Shown here: positions 30,423-61,664 of the stretch, piece after piece
Numbering within the stretch: position 1 is the stretch's first letter
How the letters are laid out: each line of letters starts with the position of its first letter
DNA from: Auricularia sp. M13
Lineage: Eukaryota; Basidiomycota; Agaricomycetes; Auriculariales; Auriculariaceae
Assembly (NCBI GenBank): GCA_037042915.1
Contig: CM073204.1
Coordinates: 744,001-808,000 of the forward strand
DNA: 64,000 bases
Reading direction: 5' to 3'
Translations under genes and position numbers: made by a program
The notes under the pieces: generated by a model
Databases searched by the model: none
The model's input: the letters and a program-made list of their open reading frames with translations, nothing else
What the model was told of the DNA's origin: nothing

Positions 30423-30514
30423 CTTATGTATGGAGCAGAACATGCACAGAATATTGGATTAGCATTTCGCTGAGAGACAAGATAACTGGAAGGCAAGATT
30501 ATGAGAAGTTTTCA

Positions 30515-35345: not shown

Positions 35346-37177
35346 ATGCCTTCGGTGTCATCGCGTACTCTGCACGTTGCGCAGGTCGCATTTGCTGTCA
35401 TATTCTGGTGGGCTCTTCGGCAGCTCTGGCTTTCGTGGTCGCTTATGACAGCTCCTAGCGTCGCTTGCTCGGGCGTGGTACTCGGCTTCGCAGGTCTGAA
35501 ATATGATAATTCCGCCTGAACCATGCTCATAATCCAATAGCACTGAAACCCGTTCTTATTCGCCAACGCGTGCTGCTTGATGCACGGCATGCAGGCTGCG
35601 TTGAGCGTTAAAGGCTATTGCCAGGCGTATATCGAGGTCCATGCGTGTCCCAAGACGAACACCGCGACGAACAGCCCTGCGACGCCCAGGTATCTATAAT
35701 CTGGTCATTTGTAGGCCGTCCTTCCTCTCTGACCCGCGTTTCAGATCTCAGGCTCAATCGCCTGTTCACGCTGGCCGCCGTCATGTTGAATGCATGTTCC
35801 ACATATAAACGCTGACAGTAATGGCTCCCTAACGCCCTTCTTCAACGCAGGTTATCGCCTTGCCAGTCGGCATTATTCTTGATCACGTTGGTCCTCGGTG
35901 GACGTGTCTTCTTGGGAGCAACGATATTTGCCTTGGGCAACATTGCATTCGGATTCGGTCAAGAGGGTCCAGGTTCGTGAACGGTCTTATACGACTTCAT
36001 GGGTTTGTCTGACTTGAACCAGTGGATATGTATCTCACGTGTGCGCCTTACTCGCTGCAAGCTGCCGCTGACTCGGTGAAAGCGGTTTCATCGCGATGGC
36101 CATTGGTGGCCCTCCCATTTATATGTCGGCACTTCACCTGTCAAATGCACGACTCGCTCGGGGTTCGTCATGAGCCTGATTACAAGCTCTTTCGACGTGT
36201 CCAGCGTACCATTTCTGGGCCTTTATTGGCTTGACTCCTGGTGCGTACTTTTCCGCTGGCTCCGATTGTACACTAGAATCAAAATATCGCAAGCTTGATG
36301 GAGCCCTACCCATAAGGATATTCGTGTGGGCATGCACGGTCATTCCTGCTCTGTACGCGGCCTGCTAGTGACTCGAATCACCTATTGACGGAACACCCAG
36401 GATCGCCTTAGAACTGTCCACCATTGGACCTATGCATTCATATTCTTTGGACGAGTTCGAATCCGTTGACGTTGGGCAAGACCCGCCGACGCATGGAGTC
36501 CTTGTGGCCCATGAGGTGTATATGCATTCGGAGGTCAACTTCGAGGAGTCCGAGATCGTCTCACTCGTGCGGTCGCTATCTCCGTCTCCTCCTCCTTCTC
36601 TCGCCCGCAAGGAGTCCAGTCCTGTGCATGATCCCGTCCAGGGTGTGCTGGTCGGCCGTAGGCTTCGCGAACAGGTCACGGGCCGCTGGTTTACGTGGGT
36701 ACACCTTCGTCTTTCTCTTGTGATATTAATGCAACCACCAGTGCTATCAGCTTATTCCTTTGCATCCACGCGTAAGCTCCCGTGAGGAACCCGAAGCACC
36801 ATACTGATGAGGCTTGCAGTGCGCGTATCAACTACATCCAGACCGTGCAGTCGCAACTTGTCTGGTATATCGCTCCTCAGCCAGCCCAGGCTCTCGGAGT
36901 CCTTTGCCATCCTGTGGCTGGCCGCTCGCGGCAACTATACGCCGCGCGGCGGCCGATGTGCTGGCGGTCACGGTGCCGGCGCTGGAGGGTGGTAGAGGTG
37001 AACATTGTGCTGTTCCGACTTGCAACCGCGGTCGACGCGGATGCGGCTGTCAGAATGTGGCTGCCGCCGCTCAAGGCGCTCTCCTCCCGCACATGGCTTA
37101 CTGCCAGCTGCAAGCACTGTGCTACGTCGCGCTGCACGGCCATTCCCCTGCTGCTGTGTTCGTCCTTAAAGTACTGA
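35346..37177 (+). CDS. FMP42/SLC43-like MFS transporter, frames disturbed (dup copy 2)
   Basis: Copy of the gene at 7,235-9,066. It differs by a few single-base changes, for example one extra C near 35,733 and different C/G counts near 36,920-36,950, which alter the frames at the C-terminal end. Which copy, if either, encodes a working transporter cannot be decided from the sequence. Confidence 0.55.
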
Positions 37178-38200
37178 TTCCTCTTTACTGAACTTGTAAC
37201 GGCGAGGTTATTCCAGTATAGAACTTGTTCCTTGTGGCCGATATCTGATATACATGTGATCTGAACTAAAACGTGCTCACTGGTTCGGTTCGAGCAGAGC
37301 ATATTGGAGAGGATGCGTGCGGACAGGACAAGGACCACGGGCCATAAGCTGGTTATGATGTCAAGCAAGAGCAGGCGCGTTCGAGTGGGATGTGCGCAGG
37401 ACGTGCCGCGCCTGCATAATCCGTCAGACGAACCATATCCTGCGACCGAACGTCAGCACGCAAGTAAGGCATGATTATCGAACACGTGCATACACCAGCA
37501 CGCCGGTGAGGGCGAGCGCTCGTTTGGGGACGCGCTCGAGCACGCACCGACCGTGAGCATCGTTGAGCGGAGCCAGGATCGCACCCATCATCGAATGCGA
37601 CCATTGTTCGATAGCCACACCCGCCTTGCCTTATATCGGCTGTATGCAAATTGCAGCGTCCGGCAATGCATATCGCGAGCGAGGGCTAGCGTTCGTAGCG
37701 CGGTCTGCTATATAAACAAACACGTAACCTGGACGGGTAAAAAAGGATTGTAGCGTCCAGCGAGCAGGGCACGGACGACGGCGACAAGATAGGCCACGAC
37801 TTCGTTGTTATGGTGCCGACGCGGTCCAGAAGATGCTGGAGGTCAGGATCAGCAGCATATAGCCGCAGATACATGGCATGCAAACGCACGAATGCTGCAT
37901 TTACGGGTGATAGTGAGCAAGACGACTTGAATGGTATTGTGAATCGGTAGGCGTATCATCGTCTCGTTGTCCTCGATAGTCGGTCGTGCCGCACGGGATC
38001 GCGCGCCAGCCAGCAATATCGTATGATAAGGCTATAAGAGCAGCCAGATGTCAAGTAGAGAAAGGGTTTCTTTCTCCTCGGCCATCGGTCGTCTAACTCG
38101 AGAGCGGAAGCGCCGCCGAGCCAGTGCGAGGCTCGAATCCATGCATCACGTTACGCTGTGCTAGCAAGCGTTTAGCAGACGACTCGCGCAATAAGACCGC

Positions 38201-38695
38201 TCAGACATACATCACCGACTGACGGAGCACTGGAAGCAGAGCTGTGGTGGGATGGTCCGGATGAACAAAACTCGGCATAGCCTGGCCAGCAAAGATTACT
38301 TGACTTACAGCAGAGATTTTGCGCCGCTTGGCGCCCTCTTCTGGAACGCCAGGCTGTCCGATCGCGCAAATTGGTAACTTGATTTGCACGGCCAGCGTCT
38401 GGAGGGAATATGTACGGTCAGCGGAAGGTTGGTCGGATGGCGAAGATGACTTGACCTGCGGCAAAGAATAAGAGGACTTCATCTGGGTAAGGTAGCTCCG
38501 TGGGGTGTCGATTGCAGCAGGCACTTGAGAACATGAATGAATATATTGGTCGAGCGCATCTATAGCACTCGATCTAAATGCCGAGCTATGTTTCAGCGTA
38601 CCAGGGCCTGTAATGAGATATCGGGCTCGGGTCCGTTCGTTCGGCGCGAACTCGCACCGCTCCGCCATGCCAACGTCGACAGCAAATGCATTCAC
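38201..38695 (-). CDS. Hypothetical ORF, 164 codons (dup copy 2)
   Basis: Identical-length copy of the frame at 10,093-10,587 in the second duplication block. No function can be assigned. Confidence 0.25.
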   Translation of the reverse strand: MNAFAVDVGMAERCEFAPNERTRARYLITGPGTLKHSSAFRSSAIDALDQYIHSCSQVPAAIDTPRSYLTQMKSSYSLPQVKSSSPSDQPSADRTYSLQTLAVQIKLPICAIGQPGVPEEGAKRRKISAVSQVIFAGQAMPSFVHPDHPTTALLPVLRQSVMYV

Positions 38696-38759
38696 GTCCG
38701 GGAGCGGAAGTGGGGACAGTTAGACATTCAGCTTCCAGGACTCGATATGAGAACAGTCG

Positions 38760-39371
38760 TGCCAGCGCGCGAGCCGAACGGGAGAGGCAGCGCACGCAGC
38801 GCCAGAGGCAGCGCCCGGCCTGGCTGCGAGGTGGGTCCGGGCGCAAGGCAGGAGCTTGAGAGCGCGCCGGAGAATCCCGGCCGCGCGCCCGTTGCTTGGA
38901 ACAGGCGCTCACCCGCGCCGACACTGCTTGCGACGCCGCCAGGCCCGCGCGAGCGCCGCGCCCGACGCAAACCGTTCTATGCGCCCCGTATAACCGTCCG
39001 TCCTCCGCCTGCGCAGGATCGTCACTGGCAGCCGCTGCCGTTGCCAGAGCAGACCCAGCCACACAGCGCCAAAGCTTTCCAGGAAATGTCAGTCCATGCC
39101 GCACGAGCTTGTCGCACCGAGCTTACCATGTTCCAGGGCACTCAAGCGCCTTCATTCCACACGATCAGGTCGCCAGGACGGAGCGCAAGACCGCGCGCAA
39201 GACTACGCGCGCCCGAATGCGCAGGGGCTGTTTCTGTCTGCGTAAAAATGACTGGCCACACGTCCCCCATTCCTCGAATCCGCCCAGCTTGCTGTCCATC
39301 CCCCTCATCCGTCGCACGAATTACCTCAGCCTGGCAGCCCGCCTGGCACCCCGCACGCATACCGCTCTGGC
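38760..39371 (+). repeat. rep-A interspersed repeat, truncated at the duplication junction (dup copy 2)
   Basis: Matches 10,651-11,258. Unlike copy 1, the repeat stops at 39,371 and is joined directly to a fatty acid synthase fragment. The last ~60 bp before the junction carry more mismatches to copy 1 than the rest of the block. Confidence 0.8.
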
Positions 39372-45185: not shown

Positions 45186-46109
45186 ATGCCCTCTCAATCG
45201 CGTACTAGAATCATGAGGGCGCAGGCGCCCCCGCACTCAGTCAAAAACTCGCGTTACATGAAGGTGGATGGCCGCAGCTGTATCCTGATGCTATGTTAAC
45301 CAATCTGCATACTGGTTCAGGATTACATTATTCTTCTCTTGGCACTCACAATCCTCGGCGCCGCCCTCTGCTACCGGTACAAGCCCACATGGGTTGCCAT
45401 CTTTGCGAAACGAGTGAACAGTCGTGGCAGCAGCGTCCCCGGGCTGTCGGACTCGATCAATCACGCTGCTTTTCAGAACGGCGCCCGAGTAATCTCAAAG
45501 CTCTCGTCGCCGTCTGTCGTCGCGCCCGTCCGTGGCCTCTATGAAGGCGGGGCGGAGAACGCCTATGTCGATCTGTTGGTTCGCGATGGGCACGGACCAT
45601 CAATTCCCGAGGCGGCCCTCGGTCTTGTTTCGGACCATCGTGCTCTCTGGTTCTTCAACGAGACGCCAGGTTTGCTCGCGGTTGCACTGCCGGCTCCTGT
45701 CGTCGTCCACACCATCCGATTCTTCGGGCATGCTGTCAAGCGATCCTGCTTGCCTCGTGCCGTGAACCTTTGGGGTCTCGTAGTGCCACCGGAGTCCAGC
45801 CGCGTTCGCTACGGCATGTTTACTTGGCCCAACTTCCCCCAGCGACTCTTACAAGTACCCACTGTCCCAGTCAAGTGGTCAGCTAAGAGTCTCCTAGCTG
45901 GTGACTCGAAGCTTAATTGGATTCCTCTGGGACAATTCAACGACATACCGCGTGGCGGAAAGCATCATGATTTCCGACCTACGCCCGGAGAATTCGGCAT
46001 AGATTTTCCCATTCACCTTGTCGCTGTGGACTTCAGACAGAACTGGGGCGAAACTTACACATGTTTTGCCGGTTTTGGCGTTTATTCTTCTGCTCCAGTT
46101 TCATCTTAA
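45186..46109 (+). CDS. SUN-domain (Sad1/UNC-84) membrane protein
   Basis: Exon 1 from ATG 45,186 (MPSQSRTRIMRAQ) to 45,262, a 59-nt GT-AG intron (45,263-45,321), exon 2 to the stop at 46,107-46,109: about 289 residues. Near residue 27 a single membrane helix, YIILLLALTILGAALCY, follows a basic N-terminus. The rest is a SUN fold: RALWFFNETPGLLAVALPAP, a jelly-roll strand; VVVHTIRFFGHAVKRS; LPRAVNLWGLVVPPES; WIPLGQFND; and the closing block FPIHLVAVDFRQNWGETYTC. SUN proteins span the inner nuclear membrane and bind KASH partners. This short form without a coiled coil belongs to a group multiplied in Agaricomycetes, and its localisation is not certain. It ends ~130 bp before the left end of the putative KDZ element. 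Confidence 0.8.
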
Positions 46110-46238
46110 ATTGTTGCTAACGAAGTCGACTCGCAGTCTGCTTCGCAGATTCTACTGTATGCCCGATCCTGTATGCACACAGCTATTGTAACGTGGCATT
46201 GATAGATCATCAACCTTCAGATATGTTAGACACTTGTA

Positions 46239-46410
46239 TTTTGGTTTGCTACTCCCAGCTCCCAGAACTCCCAGGTCCTGACTTTGACTGCTCCTGACTC
46301 CTGAACCCGAGACTTGTACTCCCAAAGTTAATGGAGAAATAAAACTTGTACTCCCAGAGCAACTTGTAAGGCGGAATAAAACACAAGTCACTCCTGACTC
46401 CCAAAATGGT
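46239..46410 (+). repeat. Left terminus and ACTCCC-rich subterminal repeats of the KDZ element
   Basis: Terminal ttttggtttgctactcccag, then repeated actcccag / actcctgactcc units; gtactccca occurs near 46,317 and 46,349. The block is inverted relative to 60,930-61,164. Confidence 0.65.
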
Positions 46411-46504
46411 CAAAGCAGAGCAGATGTATTGCGCGAGTTGTGTGCGAAAGATACAGTGTGTCGAGATGAGAAAAAAACGAGCTACGATACAGCTATAATA
46501 CAAC

Positions 46505-47480
46505 TTATGCTACAGCTACAGGCAATTCCGGACGAAGGTGAGGCACCGGCGGCAGTCTGTGACGATAGTCCATGAAGGACTGGGCGAAGCAATGCCAAAC
46601 GCTGCTCTCCAGATCATAGAAGAGCTCGGACTCGCAGTTCACGGAGTGGATGTTGCCGCCGATGGCGACGAGCTCATCCCACGGTTTGAGGAACTGGTCA
46701 GCTCGAGGCCAAGGGCGCATGAACGTGTAGAAGTTCCACAGGCTCTCGAGGCGCTCGGTGCGATCGACGACGGTCAGCTTGTTGATCGCATTCCGGTCCG
46801 TGCCAGGGACAAAGTCGGAGCCACCCCAGCAACCGCGGCATTGTCTATATCGCTGCTTTGCGTCGAACTGGAGTGGCGCGTGGTCGGGGTGACTCTGCCG
46901 GATCGTGAGGTCGAGGTAGAAGAGCTCATAGCGGAACTCTAGCTCCGTCAGTTCCCACATGATGTACCTGCGCCAGTCCAGCGACGGCCAGACAGCATCG
47001 TCGTCCTTGCCCGCCGTGAAGGGAGGAAGCTCGTGACCGTCAAAGGTCGGATGGTTGATTCGGTCGATATATTGACCGATGCGCTTCAGCGGCTCGGCGG
47101 GCGGCATCTCGACGGGCGGCTCAGCAGGCGGCTCGGGCTGCGTCGTCAAAGGCTTTGGACCAGCAGTGGGAGGTGGTTCGAGTCGTGACGAGCTCGACGG
47201 CACCGCTGGCGGCTCGGGCCCGACAGACAACGGCGGCACAGACGGATCCTCGAAACGCGAACGGCGCCACTCGACGATGGTGCCAAGGGGGCCCATAACC
47301 GCAACGGGACCCTGCTTGTTGGCCTTTGGTTGCGGTTTTTTGACACCCGCACGTTCCCAGCATCTACAATTTCATGAGTGATTAATGACTGAGCACAACT
47401 GCGGACTCACCCATCCCAATCTGCCCGCCAAATCCGTCGCGATCGAGGTGCCAGTTGCGGATGGTCATCGTTTGTCCGCC
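46505..47480 (-). CDS. Element-borne hypothetical protein P1 (Pro-rich)
   Basis: Main exon 47,363-46,505, open in the frame that includes MGPLGTIVEWRRSRFEDPSV. It is preceded by a 47-nt GT-AG intron (47,364-47,410) joining an upstream exon in the frame RIWRADWDG. No ATG is visible in that exon, so the start is unsettled and it may be a continuation of the gene at 47,483-50,115. A Pro/Glu-rich N-terminal part (PPAEPPVEMPPAEP) is followed by a folded-looking domain: DWRRYIMWELTELEFRYELF, a Cys pair CRGCWG, and WNFYTFMRPWPRADQFLKPW. No known domain was recognised. It is the leftmost gene of the putative element. Confidence 0.6.
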
Positions 47481-47482
47481 AC

Positions 47483-50115
47483 TCAATCGAAGTTCTTGAG
47501 CAGCTGCTCGCCTTCGAGGTACTGCGTGGACAAGGGCAGATAGATGATGCGCTTCGCCTTGTAGTCCCACCACTCCGTCATGCCGCGCTTGATGTTGTGG
47601 AAGTCGCGATGCTTGCGACTGATCAGCCAGAACGTTGGGGCGTCGTCGTTTGCCTCATCCACGCTGAAGTACCACGCAGTGTAGTACGTCAGCGGGCGCG
47701 TCTTCTTGCTCTTGGGCTCTGAGATATACCAGGTCTTGGGTTCGACCTCGCGCCGCTCAGCCTCGCTCCGTCGAGCTACTTCGCCTTGTTCGGGTTCGTC
47801 GAAAAGGTCGCGAATGAGCGTGTCCTTGAGCTCAGAGACGGTCTTTGCCTGGACGGGGGGACTAGGGGGACCGTACATTTCGTTCATTTCCTCCTCGCAA
47901 GAGTCAGAATCTTCGTCGATGTCGAAGACTCTCGCCGGCCGTGGACGGTTCAGACGGGGCGGAGGCGGCGGCGCAGGCTGGGGTGGAGGCGGCGGCGGAT
48001 GCGGCGGCGCTGGAGCATGTACGGCTTGACCGGACTGTGCAGCAGACGGTTGGGATGCGGGCGGTAGCGGAGCAGGCTCGTCTTCGTCCTGCACACTATC
48101 ATCCACAGGCTTGGGCAACGATGTGACCTTAGGTGCTGGTTGCGGCAGGCTCGCGTCCAGACCGAGCAAGTTGACCATGCGAGCGACATGCTGCTCCGGC
48201 ACGACCAACTTCAACAAATTTCGCCAATGAGGCGCGGACATGCCTGGATTCTGACTGGCATCCGTCGTCGCCAGTCGCCGAAGAAAATAAGGACGGATCT
48301 TGAGCCAATGCAGCAAGGGTTTAGCGGTATTCAAGTTTCCGCTCTTGACTTCCTGGGGCCGCGCGGCACTGGCGAGGGGTACACCGCCCTTGCCCTTGCG
48401 TAAGTTAAAGCCGGGCTCCTTTGCGGCTTTCCAGGCGTTGACGAAATACGCTGCCAAGGGGACCTTGTGCAGCTGCAACTTGCCGATGTTCGGCGGCACA
48501 GGCAGCACGTCGGCGGTCATGAGGTCCAGCTGCCGCTCCCGCGATACATTCACGCGCCCGGAGACGTTATGAGCGGGCATGAATACCGTTGGGAACCAGT
48601 GCGGCCGCTCCGTGCTCTTGTAAGCCGAAATCCTGTCTGGCGCCACGAGCACAATGTTGTCCAGGCCAATTGTCGAGTTCTTCCCTTCAAGCAGCTTCAC
48701 AGTCGTTCCGCGGTTACGCTTCTTTGGCGGGGCATCCGCGCTGGAACCCGGGTCTTTGCAGTTCTGGTCAGTAACCTATCATGAGAAATAGCCAACAGAT
48801 ACATACCCTGTCTTTTGCGCTTGGACGACATGCCCGACCCTTTCGCGCCTGTCGATGGCCCGGCTGCTGACAGCTGCGGCGCTGGAGGCAGATGCCCTGC
48901 AAGATGCGCAGGCGGGGGAGGAAGATGCGCTGGCGGGGGAGGAAGTGGCGCTGGCGCTGGCGGCTTAGCCGGCCTCGGGTCACGGCTCGTCGAACTCGGA
49001 CCTGCAACGCCGCTCGACGAGCTTGCGACGGGTACAGGCGCGTTGTCCTGGAAGCCGACGTCCTCGGTGCCGTTCCAGACGGACACGGTGACGGCGACGT
49101 TTGATCCAGAGAAGGTCGTGATGTCGCTGACGGGCTGCGCCTCGACATAATGGTTGCGCTCGATGTCGTGTATATGAGCGCATTGCTGACTCCCGTACAT
49201 CCTGTACATGGCTCGTCGGATGACTCCCGCCCGCTGCTTCTCAAGGAGCTCGTTGAAGTGTGCTCGAGTGAAAGGCAGGAGCTGCCACACAGGAATGTCT
49301 CGCGATGCGTAGAACATGGCGAACTTGTCACTGGTGGTGAAGCAGCCCCGATAAGGCGCGACGTGCCGAGTAGCCTGATATATACGCGCCCGGCGAGCAA
49401 CCTCGTATGACGAGACGGTGGGAATGTATGCGTCCAATCCCGCCTCAAGGTCGCCCGTCTTCTTCTCCAACTCCATCCAGCCCCGTATCTCGTTCAGACA
49501 GCGCTGCCACTCTGCGAAGTTGACGTGACAGTCCCACTTCTTTAACGACTGTCGTCTCAGGCTGCTTGTGAGCTCAACGAACTTGTCATACCGCTCCGTT
49601 GGAATACGAGCCAAAGCAGTCCTGCGGCCTGGCTTCTCCACGGCTGCCCGCCAAAGGGGTGTCGTCTCCAGCTCCGTCGTTTCGATACGATTTAGAAGCA
49701 GCGTGGGCAACTTGAAGAGCTCGCTGCCTGCTGGTCGGAGGTGCTCGTCTTCGAGACGATACCAACCCAAGTCTCCGAGCATGTCGGTGTGCCGGAGATT
49801 CCACCAGGCGCGGCCAATTTGCAGCGGAACTTGTGAGCCCACCGGCTTGAGCAGCGGCACGAACGCCATGTGCAGGTTGTTCTCGTCGTGAATCTGCGGC
49901 AGTTGGCTTGCCTCGTAGAGACCGAACCGACCGTCGACGCAGCGCGTTGAGTCGACGACGGGGTAGTCTGGTATCTCGGGCACAACGTCTCGATTCGTCC
50001 GCACGATGTATCTGGCCTCCCGCAGGCTGGGCCAGGCGCAGAAATACGGCAGAGCGGTGAACGCGGGGTCCTCCCTGAACGAAGCCATCAGAGGCTCGTC
50101 TGCCAGTAGAAACAT
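47483..50115 (-). CDS. Element-borne large hypothetical protein P2
   Basis: Start ATG 50,115 (MFLLADEPLMASFRED). Exon 1 to 48,807, a 53-nt intron (48,754-48,806), exon 2 to the stop at 47,483-47,485; about 860 residues, frame intact. The N-terminal ~330 residues look folded (CAWPSLREARYIVRTNRD, WWNLRHTDMLGDLGWYRLED, VAPYRGCFTTSDKFAMFYAS). The middle is a proline-rich linker with repeated PPPPAHLPPPPAHL and a basic KRKRQ / PPKKRNR segment, a likely nuclear signal. A second folded part follows (residues ~470-640), then another poly-proline run, an acidic stretch (DIDEDSDSCEEEMNEMY) and a C-terminal part with WYISEPKSKKTRPLTYYTAW. No catalytic motif was recognised. Its upstream region holds four TGACGC/TGATGC-loop hairpins. 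Confidence 0.75.
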
Positions 50116-50469
50116 CTCGAGAACTCACGATTCATTCTCGTCGATGGTATTTTCCATCTGGACGTCGACAGCCTGTGCCTGCGCGTTCGGATTCGACGCT
50201 GGCTGGCTGCGAGGTCGTCAGCATCAGATCGAGACGGCATACTCGAAACACTCACGCATTGTCGACGTCCATGTCGACGTCTCGAGAATCCACGTTCATT
50301 TTCGTTTGCCTGAGCGACTTGTAAATAAAAATTGACATGGTTTCGGTCAAGATGGCTCACTGAAATACGAGTTCGAGAATATCTACTAGTGGATCTTTGG
50401 ATGATTTCTATACTACGTCTAATATACGACAGGCTGGATACTTGGGACGATTCTGAGTGGTGGGAGGGG

Positions 50470-50830
50470 GTGGAGAGAGACGGACGGTACAGGCGGTGAC
50501 TGTGCGATGCACGAACGAACGGGACGCTTGAGCGCTGATCGCGGCAAGCTCAACAGCCACGTTCACTGATGCGTGAGCGTGGTGCTAATTTATGTTCACT
50601 TGCGAGGGACAGACGGACTGGGGGTGCGCAGGCAGCGTGACTGTGTGATGCACGGACGAACTGGACGCTTGAGCGCTGATCGCGGCAAGCTCAACAGCCA
50701 CGTTCACTGATGCGTGAGCGTGGCGCTGATTTATGTGGAGTTGCGAGGGAGAGACGGACTGGGGTGCGCAGGCTGCAGTACAGGCGGCGATTGTCTGACG
50801 CTCAAAGACGCTGGTGTCACTGATGCGTGA
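50470..50830 (+). repeat. ~133-bp tandem repeat, about 2.3 units
   Basis: Units begin near gacggac..., include gacgcttgagcgctgatcgc, a TGATGC-loop hairpin, and ttgcgaggga. The second unit is at about 50,610-50,750, and the third is partial and diverged. It lies upstream of the minus-strand gene P2. Confidence 0.75.
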
Positions 50831-50895
50831 ACCAGGTCGATGGTGCAGGAGCTCCCAGTAGCGCGTCCAGCTACACGTTCGCTGACGCGCGAACG
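50557..50895 (-). promoter_or_regulatory. Hairpin cluster upstream of P2 (TGATGC/TGACGC loops)
   Basis: Four dyads: 50,557-50,582 (arms 10 bp, one mismatch, loop tgatgc), 50,697-50,724 (11 bp, one mismatch, tgatgc), 50,811-50,835 (imperfect, tgatgc) and 50,876-50,895 (cgttcgc / gcgaacg, 7 bp perfect, loop tgacgc). On the sense strand of P2 the loop reads GCATCA or GCGTCA. Confidence 0.75.
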
Positions 50896-51894
50896 GTCCA
50901 CTGGCACGATACTCTGCGTCGACTGACTCGTCTACGCAGCGAAGGAGAGCTTGGAGAGCGCCCGGCGGCAGCCGGCGGCTGACTCGGGCACTTTGAACTC
51001 CGCTCAGCCAAATCGGTCGTCTAAGTTGTCGAATGGCCTTGCCTCGACGAAGAGGCCGAGAATAAATTTATAAAATTTCGAAAAAAATAAGAAAACTACA
51101 ACAAGTTCAAATGAGCACACTGGAATAATATCTCATGAAATTTCCGCTGTGCCCTTCCTGTCTCACACTCCTGACTCAACCTCATGGCCTGAGATAGCAT
51201 TATTTTAACTGAGAAACCCTCAATTTAACTCTCAAAGGGGTCTTGTAGATTAGTTAAGTCATCTTGAGCCCTGCATTGGCTGAGCTTTCATTTCCAGAGT
51301 TCGCGTTCCCGAACGGGACACGTCACGTGACGCTGTTGACGGTGACGCAATGAGCAGTGAGACGCGACTGCGACCGCACGTTGAGGATCCTGGCCCGGAT
51401 ACTTGCCGCAATATGTTCGCAATAATATCTTAAATACAATCCGTCGGTCGTGGGCGCGGGACGGACGCGTCGCGAGCGACGGACGCGTCTCGCGCCCACG
51501 ACCGACGAAAAGGGTATTCAACCGCTGCTCTGGCTGCCGTTCGCGACCACCCTGAGCTGCCGCAACGGCGTCACTGGCTTATGCTAGGACCCTAGAGCTC
51601 CCTCAAGCCGCAGCGGCGAAGGTTGCTCCGGGGTATGCGGCCAGAGCAGAAGTTGAACACGCGGTTTAAAGTCCCGCGTTCGCGGCTTCTGCGCGCCGGG
51701 TTGCACGCACCACGTGACCTGCATTCCCGATATGGCAACGATTCCGTGCCTGCACCGGTCCGCAAAACACGCGCCGCACATGATGTGCTGGCGTTGCTCT
51801 TATCGATCCTCGATCTCTCCCTAATAACCCACGTCGCAGCGAGCACATAAGCCGTGCTTTTCCGCAGCCGATCTCGCGCACATCCGTCCTGCCC
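50896..51894. other. Intergenic region between P2 and the TET/JBP gene
   Basis: Includes an AT-rich part (51,060-51,100), a gtcacgtgac palindrome near 51,324 and the 17-bp inverted repeat. No gene was recognised. Confidence 0.5.
51442..51507. repeat. 17-bp perfect inverted repeat upstream of the TET/JBP gene
   Basis: cgtcggtcgtgggcgcg at 51,442-51,458 and its exact complement at 51,491-51,507. The 32-nt spacer carries two gacggacgcgtc-like units, so ACGCGT appears at 51,465-51,470 and 51,483-51,488. It lies ~390 bp upstream of the presumed start codon at 51,895. Confidence 0.8.
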
Positions 51895-53472
51895 ATGGCC
51901 GACACTCCAGGTGCGCAACTCATCGTTCTGGCCATTGCGACTCATCAACTCGTCGGTAGGACCATATCCCGAGAATGAGAGTATCCCGGTGGACTTCGCC
52001 GAGTTATTCCAGAGAATCGTGCAGCAGGCACAGCTCAGCGGTGGGGAAAACTGCGAGATCTCTTTGGCATTCAACGCGACGGTACGGAGGAAGCTCTATC
52101 GGACGACGATGCTGGACAGGTCACTGAGCAACCTGTGACTCCGGTACAAGCTGCTGGGACTCTCGCGGCTGGCGAATCAGCTGCTGAGCCGCTCGCGGAA
52201 ACTGGGACAAAAGCTAAAGGCCGCAAGCATAAGTCAGCATCGCCTGAACACTCACGCACTTGCTCTGACTTGCCACGAAGGAAATCCAGAGCACTAAATC
52301 CCGAGAAACTCGAGGCGAAGATGCTTACAAGCTGGCATCGTCTCAATAAGAAGATGCTAGAGACTGCGCTGAAGCCCGGGAATATACGTACGTACTGTTG
52401 AGAATACATGCCCTCACCAACTCCTCCGTACAGACCGCGTTCCCGAGCTCGACCTCGCCGCGCTCGTCGACAGGAATCAAGAGCGCAACAGCAAGCCTTA
52501 CCCCGCCTTCGAATCTGTGACGGCCAGGGTCAGCGATGAGCCTTTTGTCCTCGTGGACAAGAAAGACGTACCTGCTGTCATCGTTTTCCCGAACTGGTTA
52601 TCCAAAGCTAGTCATGTGCGTCCGCGCTGCTGCGGAAACTCCTACTCACGTGCGGAATAAACTCAGGACATCCTATTCAAGAGTCTCATGGACTTCGGGC
52701 GCAGTGTCGGTGTGAAAATTCGCGCTGGCGCAGATCAGAATGCGAGAGACGCGGAAGAATGCTATACTCGGCAGGAGCATCAAGACGAACTGCACGGCGT
52801 ATTCCAGTTGGTATCCATCTGGAGGGCCCTCGGTCGATCGGTGAGCTCAGATGATCAGCCTAGAGTGTGTGTGCTCACCGGGTGAAGGCGAACAATGGCC
52901 CTGCGGGTCCCGCTCGCGATCTCTTCAAGAAAACAGACAACCTCAACGCGGGGCTCGCGTTGCTTCGAGAGCTGCGGCTCGTGACCATGCGACTCATGGA
53001 CATGTTCCAGCTCATCGACCCCGAGCAGTACAACCTCTTCAACGATGCCTCGGAGAAGTTGAAAGCCATGTACCCCGCATATGCCGCGCTGGCCGCTGCC
53101 GACCCCTCCTTCCTCCACGGGAGAAGTCTCATCTACAATCGAGAGACCGGCGAACACACTGACCGCCGCGATATGAAGCTCGCATGGACGCCGATTCTTA
53201 CAGTGGGTAAATACCGCGAAGGCACGCTTCGTGTCGCGGGTTCGGACATTAACTATCTCCCCGGAACACTTGCGTTCATTAGAGGGGGCATCTTGAAGCA
53301 CTCCGTTCAATTCGCAGGCGGTCAGCGCATCGCGATTGCGCACTTCATGCACAAGAATGTCCTTGCGGAGGTCGGTGCAACGAAGGTCAAGCTTTTCACA
53401 TACAAAGAAATGGCGGGCTATAAGCCGCCCTTCGACGAAGGCAACGGTGACTGCGATGAACCCATGAATTAG
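51895..53472 (+). CDS. TET/JBP-like 2-oxoglutarate/Fe(II) dioxygenase
   Basis: TET/JBP enzymes oxidise the 5-methyl group of cytosine or thymine in DNA. The catalytic core is in the last exon (52,864-53,472): LIYNRETGEHTDRRD gives the iron-binding His-x-Asp, followed by WTPILTVGKYREGTLRV, LPGTLAFIRGGILKH with the distal His, and GQRIAIAHFMH with the Arg expected to hold 2-oxoglutarate. Upstream are helical blocks LLRELRLVTMRLMDMF and PFVLVDKKDVPAVIVFPNWL. Likely start ATG 51,895 (MADTPG); introns 52,388-52,433, 52,616-52,666 and about 52,811-52,863, with one or two more near 51,911-52,119 whose exact sites are ambiguous. A basic segment (KAKGRKHKSASPEHS) may direct it to the nucleus. The frames join without damage, so it appears functional. 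The gene lies inside the putative KDZ element, 2.2 kb from the transposase gene. Confidence 0.85.
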
Positions 53473-53656
53473 TTTCTGAATAGCGAATGTATTCAACTCA
53501 CACTGGCAAGCATATATGCACTCATATCTCACCTTACTAATTTTCGGGCACTCATTCATCATGAACAAATGAAAGCATTAAGATTGGCGGTTAAGAGGGT
53601 CAAGGACAGGCTCATCGAGATTACAAAGTGATTAAAATAAAGTAAGGGAAGGGTAT

Positions 53657-54649
53657 TCACGCCGAACGAGACTTCTTCGTCACCGGCTGGAGTTCCTGCT
53701 GCTCATCGACCTCGCCCTGCATGTCTCTCTTGCGCTTGTCCCTGCTCGACGGTGCCGCGGGTGCCTGCCTGGCACTGGCGACGTCGCGGCTCTTCGACGG
53801 GCCGGAAACGGGCACCGGGGTGGCGAACGGGTTAGGTTTGGGGCGGCCATTGCGGCTGGCCGAACCAGCCATTGGCCGCTGCATGATTGCCGTCCCGCTG
53901 GCGGCGCCACCGCGGAGGCCAGCGTTGGCGAGGGGAGTGGCAGCGGTGGCGGCGGCGGCGGCGGTGCTTCGCGGCACGGTGGCGGGGGCGACAGCGCGTT
54001 TGGTGCGTGGAGCGGGAGCGGTGGCGGTGGGCGCGTGAGCGGGAGCGCCGGTGGCGGCAGGGCTGGTGCATGGAGCGGCAGCGGCAGCGGTGCGGGCGGG
54101 AGCGGCAGCGGCGGCGGGATTGGTGCGTGGAGCAGCAGCGGCAGCGGTGTGGGCGCGAGCGGGAGCGGCGGCGGCGGTGTCGCCAGGTAGTATCTCCGGG
54201 ATTCGGGTTCGCGGTTGGAGGATAGGATCTGGCAGCTCGGATCCGCTGTACGGCCTGCGCACAAGCCGGAGCTGTACGACGATGGACATGCTGTCACAGT
54301 CATGGCCATCCCAGCCCATGTCCATATCGTCGCCTTCCTTCAGGTGCGCATAGCGGGGAATATCCTCACCGTAACTTGGGTGCACCTGCAACACCTCGAC
54401 GAACAAGTTTTTCTCCCAGTCGTTCAGGAGAGAGAGCACGGTGGGCGGCAGCTCGTCGTAGCTCAACCACCGGTTGAAGCGCGGCGTGTTCACGATGATC
54501 GTCTCGCCAGTCTGATTGACTTTAGTCTCGCGCAACATAAGAAAAGCGCGGCGGATAATACGCACCACCATCTGACAATAAAACTGCCTCTCGCCGTTGG
54601 GGCGGGTCGGTTTGTCCGGTAGAGAGTAGAGGGGAAGCTTGGGGGGCAT
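53657..54649 (-). CDS. Element-borne hypothetical protein P3 (Ala/Pro repeat region)
   Basis: Single open frame from ATG 54,649 (MPPKLPLYSLPDKPTRPNGE), 330 residues. The first ~165 residues look folded (QMVVRIIRRAFLMLRETKV, FNRWLSYDELPPTVLSLLND, MDMGWDGHDCDSMSIVVQLR). A low-complexity Ala/Pro/Thr tract follows, with repeated AAAAPART-type units (about 54,000-54,190), then a basic tail with KRKRDMQ and KKSRSA, likely nuclear. No known domain. It is convergent with the TET/JBP gene (185 bp between the stops). Two perfect TGACGC-loop hairpins (54,864 and 54,904) lie 215-280 bp upstream of its start and a third at 55,002. Confidence 0.7.
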   Translation of the reverse strand: MPPKLPLYSLPDKPTRPNGERQFYCQMVVRIIRRAFLMLRETKVNQTGETIIVNTPRFNRWLSYDELPPTVLSLLNDWEKNLFVEVLQVHPSYGEDIPRYAHLKEGDDMDMGWDGHDCDSMSIVVQLRLVRRPYSGSELPDPILQPRTRIPEILPGDTAAAAPARAHTAAAAAPRTNPAAAAAPARTAAAAAPCTSPAATGAPAHAPTATAPAPRTKRAVAPATVPRSTAAAAATAATPLANAGLRGGAASGTAIMQRPMAGSASRNGRPKPNPFATPVPVSGPSKSRDVASARQAPAAPSSRDKRKRDMQGEVDEQQELQPVTKKSRSA

Positions 54650-54863
54650 GGAAGGAGGATTAAAGAGCGGGGTAATGTCAAGTCTGTAACTGCGAGACCC
54701 AGACGTTTAAGTACGTCGCTGCGCGGTCCCACGAAATAGCACCTGATGCTCTTCAGGGAAGGGATCTTCCAATGCTCGAGCATATCTTCTGACTGTGGGC
54801 GCAACACTGATTTTGTCGGGGGGAATGGATGCGAGGAACGGGAATGAGATGTCCAGGGACGCC

Positions 54864-55059
54864 AAGGAGGGTATATTGACGCATATACCCTCCTTTGACC
54901 GCCCACGCTCACTGACGCGTGAGCGTGTATGCGGGTGGCCGTGCAGGTACGCCTAAGCGAAGAACCTGTCCCCATCATCTCGCCTATGAGGAGAACGCCG
55001 AGAGGCCGCTCACTGACGCGTGAGCGGCCTCGTCACAGGCCCGCAGTTAAGCGGGCCTG
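54864..55059 (-). promoter_or_regulatory. Perfect hairpins upstream of P3
   Basis: 54,864-54,895: aaggagggtatat / atataccctcctt, 13 bp perfect, loop tgacgc. 54,904-54,927: cacgctcac / gtgagcgtg, 9 bp perfect, loop tgacgc. 55,002-55,031: gaggccgctcac / gtgagcggcctc, 12 bp perfect, loop tgacgc. 55,036-55,059: caggcccgc / gcgggcctg, 9 bp perfect, with a different loop, agttaa. The arms of the first are unrelated to the others, yet the loop is the same. Confidence 0.85.
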
Positions 55060-55255
55060 GCCGTGCTGTCGGACGGACACTGACCCGTGGCGTCGACAGC
55101 AGCGGGCGGGCGATGAGTCTGAGTCGGAGTTCGAACGGACTTCGGTCTTTCAGCGGCCCTCCCCCTCCTCCGCACACCCACATCCCCGTCACGCACCCGC
55201 CTTCGCCCGCCACCCCGCCTTCCCCCTTCCCTCCTCCCTCCCTCCGCTCCGCCGG

Positions 55256-55638
55256 TGGCAACGCGTCAGTTGCCATCCAGAGCTCAGGTCGTTGGTGAGC
55301 GTGGACACGCGTCAGTGTCTGCGCTCTCTTCGGCCGTCCCTCCTGCCCCACTGAATACATCGTATAACCCCCTAGTGCCAGGCATACATTTTCTTTATAC
55401 TCTACCTTTGCCCATTCCCCTCCGTAGTAGTCAACGCGTCAGTTGTCTGCCCGGAGAATCGTCGAGCACGCGTCAGTGTCCGTACGCCCCACCATCCTCA
55501 AATTAAATAATAAAACCTTGCCCATTGCTCTCCATAGCAGCCATAATCTCTGATTAATAATTTCTCTGTGTCCATTCCCCTCAGTGGCAGTCAACGCGTC
55601 AGTTGTCTGCCCGGAGAATCGTCAAGCACGCGTCAGTG
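55256..55638 (+). promoter_or_regulatory. Paired hairpin modules upstream of the KDZ transposase (GCGTCA loops)
   Basis: Six copies of acgcgtca, at 55,261, 55,307, 55,434, 55,468, 55,594 and 55,628, arranged as three pairs. In each pair the first copy is flanked by caac/gttg (extended to tggcaac/gttgcca, 7 bp, at 55,256-55,275) and the second by cac/gtg (5 bp gacac/gtgtc at 55,304-55,319). The last pair ends ~27 bp before the KDZ start codon. About 85 bp is directly repeated (55,405-55,490 and 55,566-55,652), which explains the similarity of the last two pairs. Stems shorten toward the gene. Confidence 0.8.
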
Positions 55639-55664
55639 TTCGTACGTCCCAAATCCAGATCCTC

Positions 55665-58569
55665 ATGGCACGCGATATCTTCGTCGAGCCCACCTATGTG
55701 CGGCGGCGAGGAAAGAACAAGACCTCGCAGCCCACGAGCTCGTCAAGCGCTGCTCGCAAACGCAATTCCACGAAGGCGACAGCGGCGGGCAAGCGCGCAG
55801 CACCTGCTCTCGACGTCGACCGTCCCGTGAAGCGGCGCAGGATCTTGGCGTCACAGCGCGCTCCAGAGAGCGTTTATGAAGCCTACCGGGAAGCGGTCGA
55901 TTCGCGTCAACTCGCCTTCTTCCACATCGATCCCTCAACCTGGGTCGCCGAGATATGCGACCTCGACACGTTGGCTGCGCAAGGCAGTTGCGTCAACGGC
56001 TGGGCTGTCCTGCGCAGCGAAGTCGACGAAGCAGAAGCCGTGTCGTATAACTGCACCTGCCCCGACTACCTTCGCAACTCGGACATCGACCAACGGCACT
56101 GTCTTCACACTATGCTGCTTTCGTCGGACCATCGGCCGCCGTTCAAGTTGTTCACCGAGAAAGGTGCGTTGACTATCTGTAGTGTCGTCGAGCCTCGCAC
56201 TGACTGCTGTAGACGATCCCTCCTCCGTCTTGTTCGAACATATTCCAGCTACACCCCAAGCACCTGCCCTGTCGTTCTTCGTCTCCTTCGTCCCAGGGCA
56301 CAGCAGACAAATCGTTCAACATTGCGGGCGATCCTCGAACCAGGGTCACTGGACTTGCGGCAAGCATCGCGACAACAACTGCGTGCACATCAAAGCCGCT
56401 CGTGCCCGCGACGCGTTGAAGTTACTGCTCGAGGACGCGGAAGTCGATGAACACGAGGGTGACGATCTAGCTGAGAGAGCGCGACTACGAGGTGAGCTCG
56501 CGCGTTCGATGCTTGGCCGGCCGAATGCTAATGGCCCTGCAGCCGAAGCCAAGAGTCTGAGGGATTACGATGATGAGCGGAGCGTATCCCGCCTCAACGT
56601 CGGCCCACCGGCGTGGGCGCGCATTGCCTCAGATTCTGACGAGGATGCACCCACGTTCGCCTGTTGATCCTATCCCGGACTACTTCTGCCTCGGCGAAGA
56701 TCCTCGTTGCCGCTGTGGGAGTGGTCCGAAGGAATCGGCGCCAGTCAAGGTCATCGACTGCATCGTATTCGGACTCTCGTCCGCGTGCGCTGCCCAAATC
56801 GAAGTCCAAGTCTGCAGCACCTGCGAGCCCCAAAGCCATCAGAATGCCGGGCCAGACCTGCGCGAGTTCGGTATCTTCAACTTCAATAATTCCCGCCTGT
56901 ACACGCACGAGCTTCTCGACAAGTACACTAGCCTCATGACGCTCGCCGAGGTTCCCTTCCACGCGTTCCATATATCCGTTTGTCGAGATTATACCAAGTC
57001 GTCAATTCCCTTCGTCTGCGAGCGGACGTTCCGAACAGCATATTTCTCGTTCTCCAGACTCCAGAAGCTGGACGTTAGCTTCGTCTGCGACATCTGCGGT
57101 GAAGAACCCGAGGTCGTCGTGTGTGATGGCGTGACTGCTGGCTTCAGAGCCGACTTGGTGACGGAGTCTCTGCGACCTCCCACGACCATCGATCCGCACG
57201 CGCCATCGATACTCAGCGTGAAACCGATGCCGGGGGAGACGTCGTTGGTGAACGGCGATGTCAGAAAGCGCGCCCAACAGGCAGTTCGATGGCGCCTGAA
57301 GTTGCGGCAGGGAAAGACGCCTCTCGCTCCGGGCGACGATTCGGAGGAGTCCCTTGACGAAGATGTCGATGCTGAGAGAGCGGAGCGCGTGGCGAATAAA
57401 CGACGCAACAAGAGAGATGCGGAAGATAAGGCCATGAGAAAGAAGTTGCCTGGGATTGTGGACGAACTCGCGAAGCAGAGCCGTGAATTAGCACAGATGT
57501 TCGGCATATATGTAGCGACCGATTTGAAGAGCCTCGACAGCACCGTCTTAAAGAATTACTTGCATCTATTGGAGCAGGTGGGTTCGTTTCCTTTCCAGGG
57601 TAATGTTGTCTCTAACATCGTATCTAGCTGCTGGCATATGAGTCGGTGCTACAGTTCGCAAACAAAGCGGCGTGGCCCTTTCTCGACATGCTCAAGGACG
57701 GCGACGCGGAGGGCATCCTGCCGCTACTCTCACTCGTTCCCGCACTCGCCGTCGTCGCTCGGTATGAAGTGAAGACAACGACACAAATCAGCTCTACACT
57801 TCGAAGCGTCGCGGGATTCGTTCTTGACCGTTCTCAAACGGTCTTCGCGTCGCTTTCGCACCACGACCCGGATGAACACCTGATCGAAGAGCACGAGGAT
57901 TGGCGCGAGGTTCGTTTTTATAATGATCCCGGACAGTGACAAAGTTAACACGCATTTCAGACTGGCACATTCTATGGACGGCCTCGGATTCGAAACAGAT
58001 CGGTGTACCCCAACATTCCCGGAGACGGCGCAACTGATCGCGCGACGGTCACAGCGTCGGGCGGGAAGATGGCATGCTCCAAGTTTTATCAGACCTATGG
58101 CAAGAAAGGCCTAACGGGCGGCTTGATGGCCATCTGGTGCCCGCACAGCGTCTGCTACGGGTTTCACTGCATCCCGAAAGGCGAGGGGCGGAACGACGTC
58201 TTTTCCGCGCTGTACACTCACTGGGTTCGGCCACCCAAAGTCGCTGTGTACGACTTCGCCTGCGCGCTGTCCCCGTACTGCATGATTCGGGAACCCATCT
58301 ACTTCGGCGACACCCTTTTCGTCATCGATGGCTTCCATGAGCACGACCACTCCCGCTGCTCGCCGGCCTGTTTCCTCAGCGCGTATTTGGAATGGTCTGA
58401 AAAGTATCGGAACATCAACTCGAGCGCCGGCGAATGCGGGAACTCCAGCCTGCTCAAGATCCGCAAGTCGCTCAGTTACATGGGCCAACGCCACGGTATA
58501 GTCCTTGTCTATACATTCCTTGCCATTTGGAACCGCATGCGGCAGAAATCGCGAGAGGCAGATGCTTAA
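55665..58569 (+). CDS. KDZ (Kyakuja-Dileera-Zisupton) transposase, intact
   Basis: Start ATG 55,665 (MARDIFVEPTYVRRRGKNKT). Five exons: 55,665-56,163, 56,213-56,583, 56,633-57,577, 57,628-57,909 and 57,961-58,569, with introns of 49-51 nt. The exons sum to 2,706 nt, 901 residues with no frame break. Order of parts: basic N-terminus; a SWIM-type zinc finger (C130-x-C132, C146-x-H148); a second Cys/His cluster (C215, C223-x-H225); a Cys-rich region of the kind found with KDZ transposases (CLGEDPRCRCGSG, CSTCEPQ, VCDICGEEPEVVVCDG); a charged linker; then the RNase H-like core with GGLMAIWCPHSVCYGFHCIP, VYDFACALSPYC (D797), VIDGFHEHDH...C (D822) and NSSAGECGN (E857), the likely acidic triad. It cuts and joins transposon ends in the nucleus. 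The promoter region carries three paired GCGTCA-loop modules. Confidence 0.92.
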
Positions 58570-59056
58570 TCACGTGGCTTGAGACCCTGTCGATCCGGCG
58601 ATCTTAGATAATCCTGATAATCCCGAGTGCTGAACCCCAAAGGGGACGGACTTGCATTACTGGTGCGTCGTGATCGTCCAATTCTCTGTGTAATATCTCA
58701 TGCAAATATACCTCGCAGTAAACGTCATGATAACCATGTGTCGCACTGGTGTAGATAAGCATCGCACAGCGCCATTTACAATGAACAAGAACGGGCCAGC
58801 CGTAATATATCGAGGGCGTTGCGACAGACCAGACGCGACGTCTCGTACTCGGCGCCTGCAAATGTACGGCCAGCGTCATTTTTCGCGCATTAATCCGAAT
58901 CTTCGTACGAAGCTATCAGTGTTAAGCTACCAATATAATATAGACCACGAACGTCGCCGATCTACATTTTCCTTGACCTACGAGCCCGGCACTTTGCTCG
59001 GGCTTCGGAATTTTGGACGGCGTCGCGGGAGACCCCGTCTACCTGCTCTCGACACT
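58570..59056. other. Intergenic stretch between KDZ and P4
   Basis: AT-richer than its surroundings. No gene, hairpin cluster or repeat was recognised. Confidence 0.5.
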
Positions 59057-60927
59057 ATGGCTGGGTTTACACCGCCGAACGACACCCCCACTATGCCACT
59101 GCACTGGCACCATCTGCCCGTCATTGCCATGCACGAGCATAGGCTTGTGCATGACAATGGTGCACTTCCCGGCCATTTCGAGCGCGACTTCAACGCGGCG
59201 CCATACCCTGTTCCGCTCGTGCCCGGGGAGCCCATCGAGCCCGCTCGCGCGCAGCCCGTTGCGGGCTTCGACGAGGCGCCGTACGCTGCCGGCTGGCCGT
59301 TCCCGCTTGTCCTGCCCGCGCCCATCGAGCTCATCGAGCCCGCCAGCGAGCAGCGGGTCGCGGACTTCGCCGCTGCGGCGACTGGCGACCGCTGGCCCGC
59401 GCAACCCGTCCCGCCCGGCATGCACTTCCAGCCCAGGCACATCGACTCTGGCACAATGCAGCGCAACACGGGCTCCAACGTCGCGCCATCTGCCGTCCGC
59501 TGGCCCGGGCAGCCCGCGTTGCGCTTCGACGGCATAGGAAACGGCGCGCCGCCCGCATTTTCGCCGTTCTCGCTCTCCCACGAGCCCGCCATGCACAGCG
59601 ACACAGCGCTCGTCGAGCGCTTGCCCTTATACAAAGCGCCCGCCGACCTCGCGGGCGGGCAGCGGGTCGTGGACTCCGACGTCGTCCCGCCCGTTCCGCC
59701 CTTCTGCCACGCGCGCGCCGACCAGCCAAATGGGCAGCGCGTCGGGCAGCGCGTCTCGCCCGTCCCGCCCGTCTCGCGCTTCGACCACGCGCGCGCCGAC
59801 CAGCCAAACGGGCAGCGCGTCGGGCAGCGCGTCTCGCTCGTCTCGCCCGTCTCGCGCACGCGCGCCGTCCCGCCGCCGTCTCGCCCGTTCCGCCCGTCTC
59901 GCGCTTCGACCACGCGCGCGCCGACCAGCCAAACGGGCAGCGCGTCGGCAGCGCGTCTCGCCCGTCTCGCCCGTCTCGCGCACGCGCGCCGTCTCGCCCG
60001 TTCCGCCCGTCTCGCGCTTCGACCACGCGCCCGCCGACCAGCCCGTTCCGCCCGTCTCGCGCTTCGACCACGCGCCCGCCGACCAGTCAAGCGGGCAGCG
60101 CGTCTCGCGCGTTTCGCTCGCCGTCTCGCCTGTCCTGCCCGTCTCGCACTTCGACCACACGCCCGTCGTCGTGAGCGGGCAGTGGGAAGGAGACTTCCAC
60201 GCCGGCGGCACGACGCTCGCCACGCGCTGGCAGTCGACCACGTCCGCCATGGACGACGACGCTGTAAGTGTGCCAACCGCCTGCTTGTTTCTGTAACTCA
60301 CGGCCGTCACAGGTGGCACCGCAAGGTCACGGCGCCGTGTGCTGGCTTGCGCACGGCGAATCGCTGCTCTTCTCGTCCTACCTCGTGCCCGCCTTGGAGA
60401 ATGACATGGCCAGCCAGGCGCGCGCCCCGGCCGTCTCCACGCCCACCCAGTCGACGCTCGCCGTGAACGGCACGGCGCACATGCCGCTCGCTCGCGAACC
60501 CGAGGCTGCCGCCGCGCGCTGGTCCGCGGCCTTGGACGACGCGTTGCGCGCTCGCATGGACCAGTCGAGCGCCGAGGCTGTGGTGCTTGACGCCGCTGCT
60601 GCGCACGATCCAGTGCGCAGCTGCGCGCCGTTCCCAGGCTTTGCGTCGCCGGCCTTCGAGCCAACGGACGTCTTGCCGCTGTTCCCCGCGCCCGACTTCC
60701 CGATGCTCGACGCCGCTGCTGCGCACGAATCTCACATTGCGCAAAAGAACATTGCTGCGCGTCACGCGCTCGCAGCTGGGACTTATGCCCCGGATGACTG
60801 GGCCCGTAAGGGACTTGACTTTGTGCAGATTGTCCGAAGACCGTACGTCCGTCTCAGCGCCAAAACGGCCCTGGCTCGTGCAGTGGGAGTTGCCAATGCT
60901 GAAAGTCGGGTGCTCAAGGAGCTCTAG
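59057..60927 (+). CDS. Element-borne repeat-rich disordered protein P4
   Basis: Likely start ATG 59,057 (MAGFTPPNDTPTMPLHWHHL). The first ~220 residues carry imperfect repeats of the type FDEAPYAAGWPFPLVLP and WPAQPVPPGMHFQP. From about 59,700 to 60,150 there is a tandem array of SRFDHARADQPNGQRVGQRV units of ~60-75 bp. Within the array the frame shifts, with base losses near 59,870 and 59,951, so the gene is either damaged or mis-sequenced there. The downstream frame resumes the same repeats, ends exon 1 at TSAMDDDA (about 60,262), crosses a 49-nt GT-AG intron, and continues to the stop at 60,927, with two AAAAHDP / AAAAHES repeats. It is proline-rich with no recognised domain. It ends directly at the right subterminal repeats. 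Confidence 0.6.
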
Positions 60928-60929
60928 GA

Positions 60930-61164
60930 GTTGGGAGCTCTGCATTTCTTGGGAGCTTGGGAGTACTGACTTAGGTAGACTTTTGGGGAGTTGGGAGTAC
61001 TGACTTAGATAGACTTACAGGGTGGAGAAGCCCAGGAGTGGGTAAAAAGAGTCAATTGGACTCTGGGAGTTGTGGGAGTTGGGAGTGGGAATATGTACAT
61101 AGGGAGTAGGAGTAGAAAAATTCAGGAGTATTCCTGAGAAAACTGGGAGCAGCAAACCAGAAAA
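60930..61164 (-). repeat. Right terminus and GGGAGT-rich subterminal repeats of the KDZ element
   Basis: gttgggag and tgggagtactgactta units (two near-exact copies of ~35 bp at about 60,957-61,017), then gggagttgtgggagttggga and the terminal ctgggagcagcaaaccagaa. It begins right after the stop codon of the repeat-rich protein gene. Confidence 0.65.
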
Positions 61165-61664
61165 CCACTCAAGGCCATAACCCCCTTGGAGACTCATTGG
61201 CTGCAACAGGACGTGGTTCCTTCAAATTCTGCGACGTCAACACCGTTGAATTCACAATCCATTGAAACGCGAGTAGGAGCGGCAGGCAGGGCTTGCAAAG
61301 TCAACAGTTGCAGCAAACCCCTCTGGTATTTCGGTGTGCAAAAAATTAAGTTGACTGGCGTTGACGAGATTCTCGCAGCAGGAGTCTGGGGCATCCAAGC
61401 GCGATGTATGGTGTGCGCGTGGTCTATCGCTGATGGTAGGCACCATTTCCTTGTTGCTACTCCGGTGTCGTAACATTCTCATGATTTGTCGTATCCACCG
61501 ACTTCTATACCGTACGCTCGCGTCACATTATCCGGTCACAAGTCACAACCCTCTAGCGCTAAGGCAATAATAAATCTCCAAGTTCACGGTTCTTGAAGGT
61601 CATGCGGTTATGTTCGGGAGAGAGAGAGGCTGTACCAATGCACTACGAGTTGAACCCGTCTTCA
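61165..61664. other. Right flank of the KDZ element
   Basis: A plus-strand frame at 61,186-61,473 (95 codons) has no recognised motif. Otherwise nothing was seen. Confidence 0.4.

Follow-up and report, generated by a model that had tools for sequence, protein, structure and literature searches.

Candidate stem-loop arrays with a common TGACGC loop in a KDZ/TET-JBP DNA transposon family of Auricularia sp. M13

The 64,000-nucleotide stretch of Auricularia sp. M13 analysed here (contig CM073204.1, positions 744,001 to 808,000; hereafter the window) holds a copy of a DNA transposon with KDZ transposase and TET/JBP oxygenase domains, in which clustered short hairpins share the loop TGACGC while their arms differ. 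With a probability of about 0.4, we take these hairpins to be an array of cis-acting stem-loops of a single KDZ/TET-JBP transposon family, which would present a putative recognised loop and fold in RNA. The combination of a shared loop with stems that differ and yet pair suggests, on the evidence of the sequence, that something recognises the folded shape.

Paired arms around a common loop

The hexamer occurs at 52 sites in the window, 25 times as TGACGC and 27 times as GCGTCA, and 11 of these sites lie in the two stretches that hold the hairpins (50.5–50.95 and 54.85–55.65 kb), the remaining 41 being outside. At least three inner Watson-Crick pairs surround 10 of the 11 clustered sites, the one at 50,796 being the sole exception, versus none of the 41 others (Fisher p 7e-10), which agrees with the claim of an original prediction, made from the letters of this DNA, that the hairpins are confined to these stretches. 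The five dyads quoted there, with arms of 13, 12, 9, 7 and 7 bp, were all found in place. Perfect TGACGC dyads with arms of at least 7 bp (7 to 13 bp) thus number five in the window, versus 0.004 expected. Hexaloop dyads with such arms number 15 in the whole window, including 10 with other loops, and the comparison with other hexamer loops that had been proposed as a check left TGACGC without an equal: among 846 hexamer classes that occur 30–80 times in the window, no other has more than one dyad of at least 7 bp. The hexamer itself is abundant genome-wide, with 41,705 sites versus 39,297 for the reversed control.

The hairpins of the window are the following.

50558..50938, + strand: cluster I, with loops at 50567 and 50708 (TGATGC, in 141-bp tandem units), 50821 (TGATGC), 50883 (TGACGC) and 50924 (TGACTC)
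54864..54895, + strand: cluster II site A, perfect 13-bp arms, loop TGACGC
54904..54927, + strand: cluster II site B, 9-bp arms, loop TGACGC
55002..55031, + strand: cluster II site C, perfect 12-bp arms, loop TGACGC; the nine other copies read have a single A-C mismatch
55069..55098, + strand: weak site J, loop TGACCC
55256..55275, - strand: cluster III site D, 7-bp arms
55297..55326, - strand: cluster III site E, 12-bp stem interrupted by a 2-by-2 mismatch, which two G-U pairs close when the + strand is read as RNA
55426..55642, - strand: cluster III units, two of 160 bp, each with sites F and G; loops at 55436, 55470, 55596 and 55630

The loop, originally described as invariant, is not entirely so. 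Three of the four TGATGC sites in the clusters also have at least three inner Watson-Crick pairs, single window hairpins carry TGACTC and TGACCC, and the variants across element copies comprise TGATGC, TGGCGC, TGACAC, TGACGT, TGACCC and TGACTC. The arms, which had been called unrelated, do differ between sites; those of types B, C and H1 nevertheless have an inner G[CT]TCAC in common, and a C-G pair is the closing one in 11 of the 13 site types. A covariance model built from these 13 types (12 from the window, and A3 from the copy at locus L039) finds 15 hairpins in the window, partly by construction, all at 50.55–50.94 or 54.86–55.65 kb and with 19.2–35.7 bits. The next matches are the opposite strand of the same places, and the next independent place scores 12.5 bits. 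Adjoining site C lies a perfect 9-bp hairpin (55036..55059, + strand) with the loop AGTTAA, which is not that of the family; it was also found in L039 and L042.

Within one element the arms vary from site to site, and each matches its own partner. Over the 13 types the covariation score is 0.620, versus 0.193 (standard deviation 0.038) in shuffles, none of 500 reaching the observed value, and with partners slid by 1–3 columns it is 0.089–0.203. Watson-Crick cells amount to 114 of 156, as compared to 69.0 when the 3-prime arms are swapped. Because the three inner pairs had served in site selection, they were set aside in the column test; pairs 4–12, which had no part in selection, are Watson-Crick in 75 of 117 cells versus 41.6 after swapping (0 of 20,000 permutations), and in 51 of 90 versus 30.4 (1 of 20,000) when three related types are dropped. 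Divergence between tandem units (28 and 32 aligned units, the A and G arms not being used to find them) is smaller in the arms than in the spacers, both at site A (0.068 versus 0.220) and at site G (0.037 versus 0.186), and the loops of A and G are invariant, with 0.056 for that of F. The B arms and the inner F arms were alignment anchors, conserved by construction, and are excluded as evidence. Between units, site A3 shows one compensated change, from T-A to C-G, and close by a G-to-A change without compensation.

The transposon and its copies

The element and its genes in the window are as follows.

46218..61184, strand not assigned: KDZ/TET transposon copy (about 15 kb) that holds the hairpins; left limit from alignment to the contig 3 copy, right limit from three copies
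52864..53472, + strand: open reading frame with a TET/JBP oxygenase domain (Pfam Tet_JBP)
55665..58569, + strand: pieces of the KDZ transposase gene, with an inferred first ATG at 55665, CxC4 in the frame 56561-57772 and the KDZ domain in the frame 57949-58569
48697..50124, - strand: accessory open reading frame left of cluster I, for which neither a Pfam match nor a homologue was found
53657..54706, - strand: accessory open reading frame left of cluster II, no Pfam match

Since TET/JBP, CxC4 and KDZ domains are all present, the element is, as judged from these domain matches, of the KDZ/TET type described for Agaricomycetes (PMC12730594), and the association with KDZ and TET genes that had been anticipated is thereby confirmed. 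The CxC4 match is far above its curated cut-off (E 2.6e-37), the Tet_JBP match (E 6.6e-7, 29.1 bits) is below the cut-off of 34.9 bits and the KDZ match (E 2.7e-4, 21.2 bits) below that of 26.6 bits; among solved chains, the TET/JBP frame weakly matches CcTet and one other TET/JBP chain (E 0.004). Fifteen relatives of the CxC4 protein were found, and the five with names come from fungi that we take to be Agaricomycetes. The accessory frames that were scanned gave no Pfam match. About 2 kb, including an apparent gene for 463 amino acids, is absent from the window copy and from L041 and present in the other eight copies read; this acidic open frame (L039, 1861-3249; seen also in L042) has no Pfam match, and a homologue search for it and for the frame at 48697..50124 found none for either. 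The element begins with CAGATATG and ends with CATAACCC, with an imperfect inverted similarity of about 41 nt at the ends as judged by eye, and no clear target duplication is seen in the two copies with both ends covered. Kyakuja-type elements are described in PMC12730594 as having CA..TG ends, no inverted repeats and a 7-bp target duplication.

Near-complete copies of the 801-bp region that holds clusters II and III occur at 11 places in the genome, the window included, with additional fragments on contig 10. Ten of the 11 copies were read (the window and L039-L047), and the same site has nearly identical arms in each of them; since every site keeps nearly the same arms in all copies read, the recurrence of the hairpins is explained by transposition. 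Identical arms elsewhere had been named beforehand as a sign of simple duplication, and the outcome is divided: copies are nearly alike site by site, but sites within an element differ. Cluster III comprises 2 to 7 units of 160 bp in the ten copies, with two hairpins per unit. Of the copies on contigs 1, 3, 4, 5, 7, 9 and 11, several lie within 0.1–0.5 Mb of a contig end.

Could all of this be without function, a few ancient palindromes having been spread by tandem repeats and transposition? The near-identity of arms at the same sites across copies, and the limitation of the hairpin family to one element family in the sequence searched, would be expected in that case. We nevertheless regard it as improbable, because copying alone is insufficient to produce more than ten site types with differing, own-complementary arms around one loop, and because the arms are conserved relative to the spacers.

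Exact CACTGACGCGTG sites number 98 genome-wide, versus 11 for the reversed control; 71 fall by position in element copies or fragments and 27 elsewhere. Twelve of these 27 were examined and have Watson-Crick arms of 3 bp only, nine of the 12 lying in other repeats. The model search covered 44 of 79 loci (190,257 bases; the remainder overlap these or were not chosen), and outside the element it gave at most 18.3 bits (L049, past the element's end, loop GGACTC), followed by 16.7 (L014) and 16.4 (L016 and L025), most family sites scoring 19–36 bits. On these 44 loci and 12 sites, the suggestion of tiny mobile, dispersed hairpins found no support and was rejected. Six CACTGACGCGTG sites on contig 1 (G000, 7802229-7849764) are spaced by about 9.5 kb, a period like that of ribosomal DNA; the three loci examined there have 3-bp arms. 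The genome contains 19 TET and 39 CxC4 matches, the diverged elements among them being read in part only. In the 19 TET loci with flanks of 1.5 kb, ten of them away from family copies, no TGACGC or TGATGC dyad of at least 4 bp was seen; for the family's own loci these flanks stop short of the hairpin clusters. Five regions that precede diverged CxC4 matches (L073-L077) likewise showed no array, their best structure being a 4-bp stem in L076 with the loop TGATGC; the parts read of the diverged loci L078 and L079 showed none either. As far as the parts read go, such hairpins do not appear to be a general property of KDZ/TET elements, an idea that was dropped.

A fourth cluster, with new arms and the same loop, was found in three other copies with the model built from the 13 types. 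The hairpins concerned, none of which had been used for the model, have the TGACGC loop in seven cases in L053, one in L051 and two in L046, and the loop TGGCTC in one case in L051; in the contig 1 copy, joining of neighbouring stretches adds a second TGACGC hairpin, with eleven in all. Cluster IV lies to the right of the transposase domain and has 10-bp arms CGCC(T/C)TGCGC. No TGACGC-like dyad of 4 bp was found at 58.5-61.2 kb of the window, or in L049, the right side of the contig 3 copy. The original proposal that pairing is maintained is backed by the covariation and by this predicted cluster, while recognition of the loop is what we infer from them.

Elsewhere in the window, positions 1-11258 and 28116-39371 form a large direct duplication (spacing about 28,113 bp, 98-100% identity in the pieces listed), with inverted partial copies.

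The folded molecule

Because a protein that reads duplex DNA gains nothing from complementary arms of varying sequence, the arms imply that a strand folds, unless the dyads arise by mutational bias. Such a bias is the core of an explanation that we consider unlikely, in which CACTGACGCGTG-like sites are kept as ordinary protein-binding sites and template switching lengthens or re-perfects their arms, without selection on pairing. It would account for the occurrence of ACGCGTCA at sites B, C, D, E, F and G, for the prevalent C-G closing pair, and for site C, which is perfect in the window and has one mismatch in nine other copies. ACGCGTNA is the MluI cell-cycle box; an array of such boxes was rejected as a candidate, ACGCGTNA being absent from types A, H1-H3, I, J and IV. 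ACGCGT is absent from these types as well, and three of them, A, H2 and IV, keep TGACGC unaltered between arms of 13, 7 and 10 bp, which speaks against this explanation. So does the finding that, among hexamer classes about as frequent in the window, no other has more than one dyad of at least 7 bp.

TGACGC is on the + strand in clusters I and II and on the - strand in III and IV, so that all four read inward from the element ends. Clusters I–III sit between open frames, and 22 nt separate the end of cluster III from the first ATG of the inferred transposase frame. The minimum-energy fold of the + strand of cluster III contains all six GCGUCA hairpins with exposed loops (z -4.3), versus three on the opposite strand. 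In the 15 majority forms read on the GCGUCA strand, internal non-standard pairs are G-U in seven cases, A-C in three and other in eight, and sites A3, C and E have 12 continuous pairs when G-U is counted. The fold and strand evidence weakly favours RNA, and the stem-loops are somewhat more likely to act in RNA than in DNA.

Several observations weigh against the proposed RNA stem-loops. At 7 to 3, the excess of G-U over A-C is slight (binomial p about 0.17), and F and its variant enter it as two forms. Taken singly, 12 of the 15 hairpins are more stable when read as GCGUCA, but loop energy alone produces this preference in 300 of 300 random perfect stems as well; clusters I, III and IV as wholes have lower energy on the opposite strand. 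In the 11 hairpins of cluster IV the variable pair is T-A in five (four perfect 10-bp stems and one with a G-T at another pair), C-G in two, C.A in two and T.G in two; all four combinations thus occur, without evident association. This cluster may moreover be coding, because open frames run through it. The loop of site B is more variable (0.158) than its unit-mates, and small insertions disrupt two hairpins of cluster I in the copy on contig 1. Finally, full copies have an apparent + strand gene left of cluster II and no adjoining - strand gene. In those copies the cluster is thus no leader for the - strand gene that comes next, and the notion that the hairpins form the leader of every neighbouring gene was dropped for this cluster. 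Separately, a Rfam search of window positions 46000-61400 up to E 5 returned nothing for the clusters. Its three matches to microRNA precursors, all below threshold, fall at 51.4 kb on another, long inverted repeat, which was read by eye at 51442-51507, upstream of the TET gene.

Alternatively, the arrays may be sites in DNA, bound in extruded or single-stranded form by the transposase or an accessory protein, either for end assembly or for TET recruitment that removes methylation, as a structural counterpart of VANC arrays. VANC proteins bind arrays of tandem motifs in non-coding transposon parts (PMC5735166). The inward orientation of all four clusters, as is often found for binding sites in two-ended elements, is consistent with this, as are the location of clusters I–III between open frames, the variable unit number of cluster III, the CpG in the loop, several loop variants being CpG transitions, and the TET/JBP domain encoded by the element. 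On the other hand, complementary arms of changing sequence are not needed by a duplex-reading protein, arms of 7 bp extrude poorly, the inward symmetry has a chance probability of 1/8, and no cluster is located at the very termini in copies with covered ends. We see DNA-level sites as possible, though doubtful.

With stem-loops in RNA, a protein would read the loop as GCGUCA, on transcripts running outward from the middle of the element, the stem serving only to present it. The fold would arise mainly before the transposase gene, the strength of control over the transposon's own messages would be set by array length, and the gene for the loop-reading protein could lie in the element or in the host genome. 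A different use of the same loop, which we rate as rather improbable, is that of an address label in an anti-silencing system guided by structure: an element protein would recognise the common loop and direct the TET/JBP enzyme to DNA or nascent RNA of the element itself. If so, stems would be free to drift while pairing holds.

Comparison with known systems

Iron-responsive elements and Smaug recognition elements combine a fixed loop with a variable stem and are bound by an RNA-binding protein. The present hairpins resemble such invariant-loop RNA hairpins in these features of loop and stem; the loop is GCGUCA as compared to CAGUGN or CNGG, and the arrays lie in a DNA transposon, with no Rfam match in the window clusters. 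As regards the host element, the TET+ Kyakuja transposons of Agaricomycotina similarly unite a KDZ transposase and a TET/JBP gene in one multi-copy element, but the word 'hairpin' is absent from the main text of the paper (PMC12730594).

The closest functional parallel is the VANC-bound tandem array of VANDAL elements, which are MULE transposons of Arabidopsis. According to PMC5735166, VANC is a transposon protein that binds short tandem motifs in non-coding element parts and induces methylation loss. The likeness to VANDAL elements consists of a short motif in tandem units, located in non-coding regions of a DNA transposon, with a unit number that varies between copies, and of genes on the element that possibly oppose silencing (PMC5735166). 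Clusters I–III have this arrangement of a short tandem motif in non-coding DNA, and cluster IV may be coding. In contrast, the VANC motif is plain duplex, 'hairpin', 'palindrom' and 'inverted' being absent from the main text (PMC5735166), whereas the present motif sits on stems; no VANC-like protein was identified in the present element, which possibly has a demethylating enzyme on board. A VANC-like link to demethylation is conjecture for this element.

No description of such hairpin arrays turned up in the open-licence literature searched, subscription papers being outside that search. The family would be an unusual case of conservation of both loop and pairing in a eukaryotic DNA transposon. 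A multi-copy cis element in a TET/JBP transposon, with a loop and stems that can be tested, would offer a concrete handle on how the transposon-encoded TET/JBP enzymes of mushrooms find their targets.

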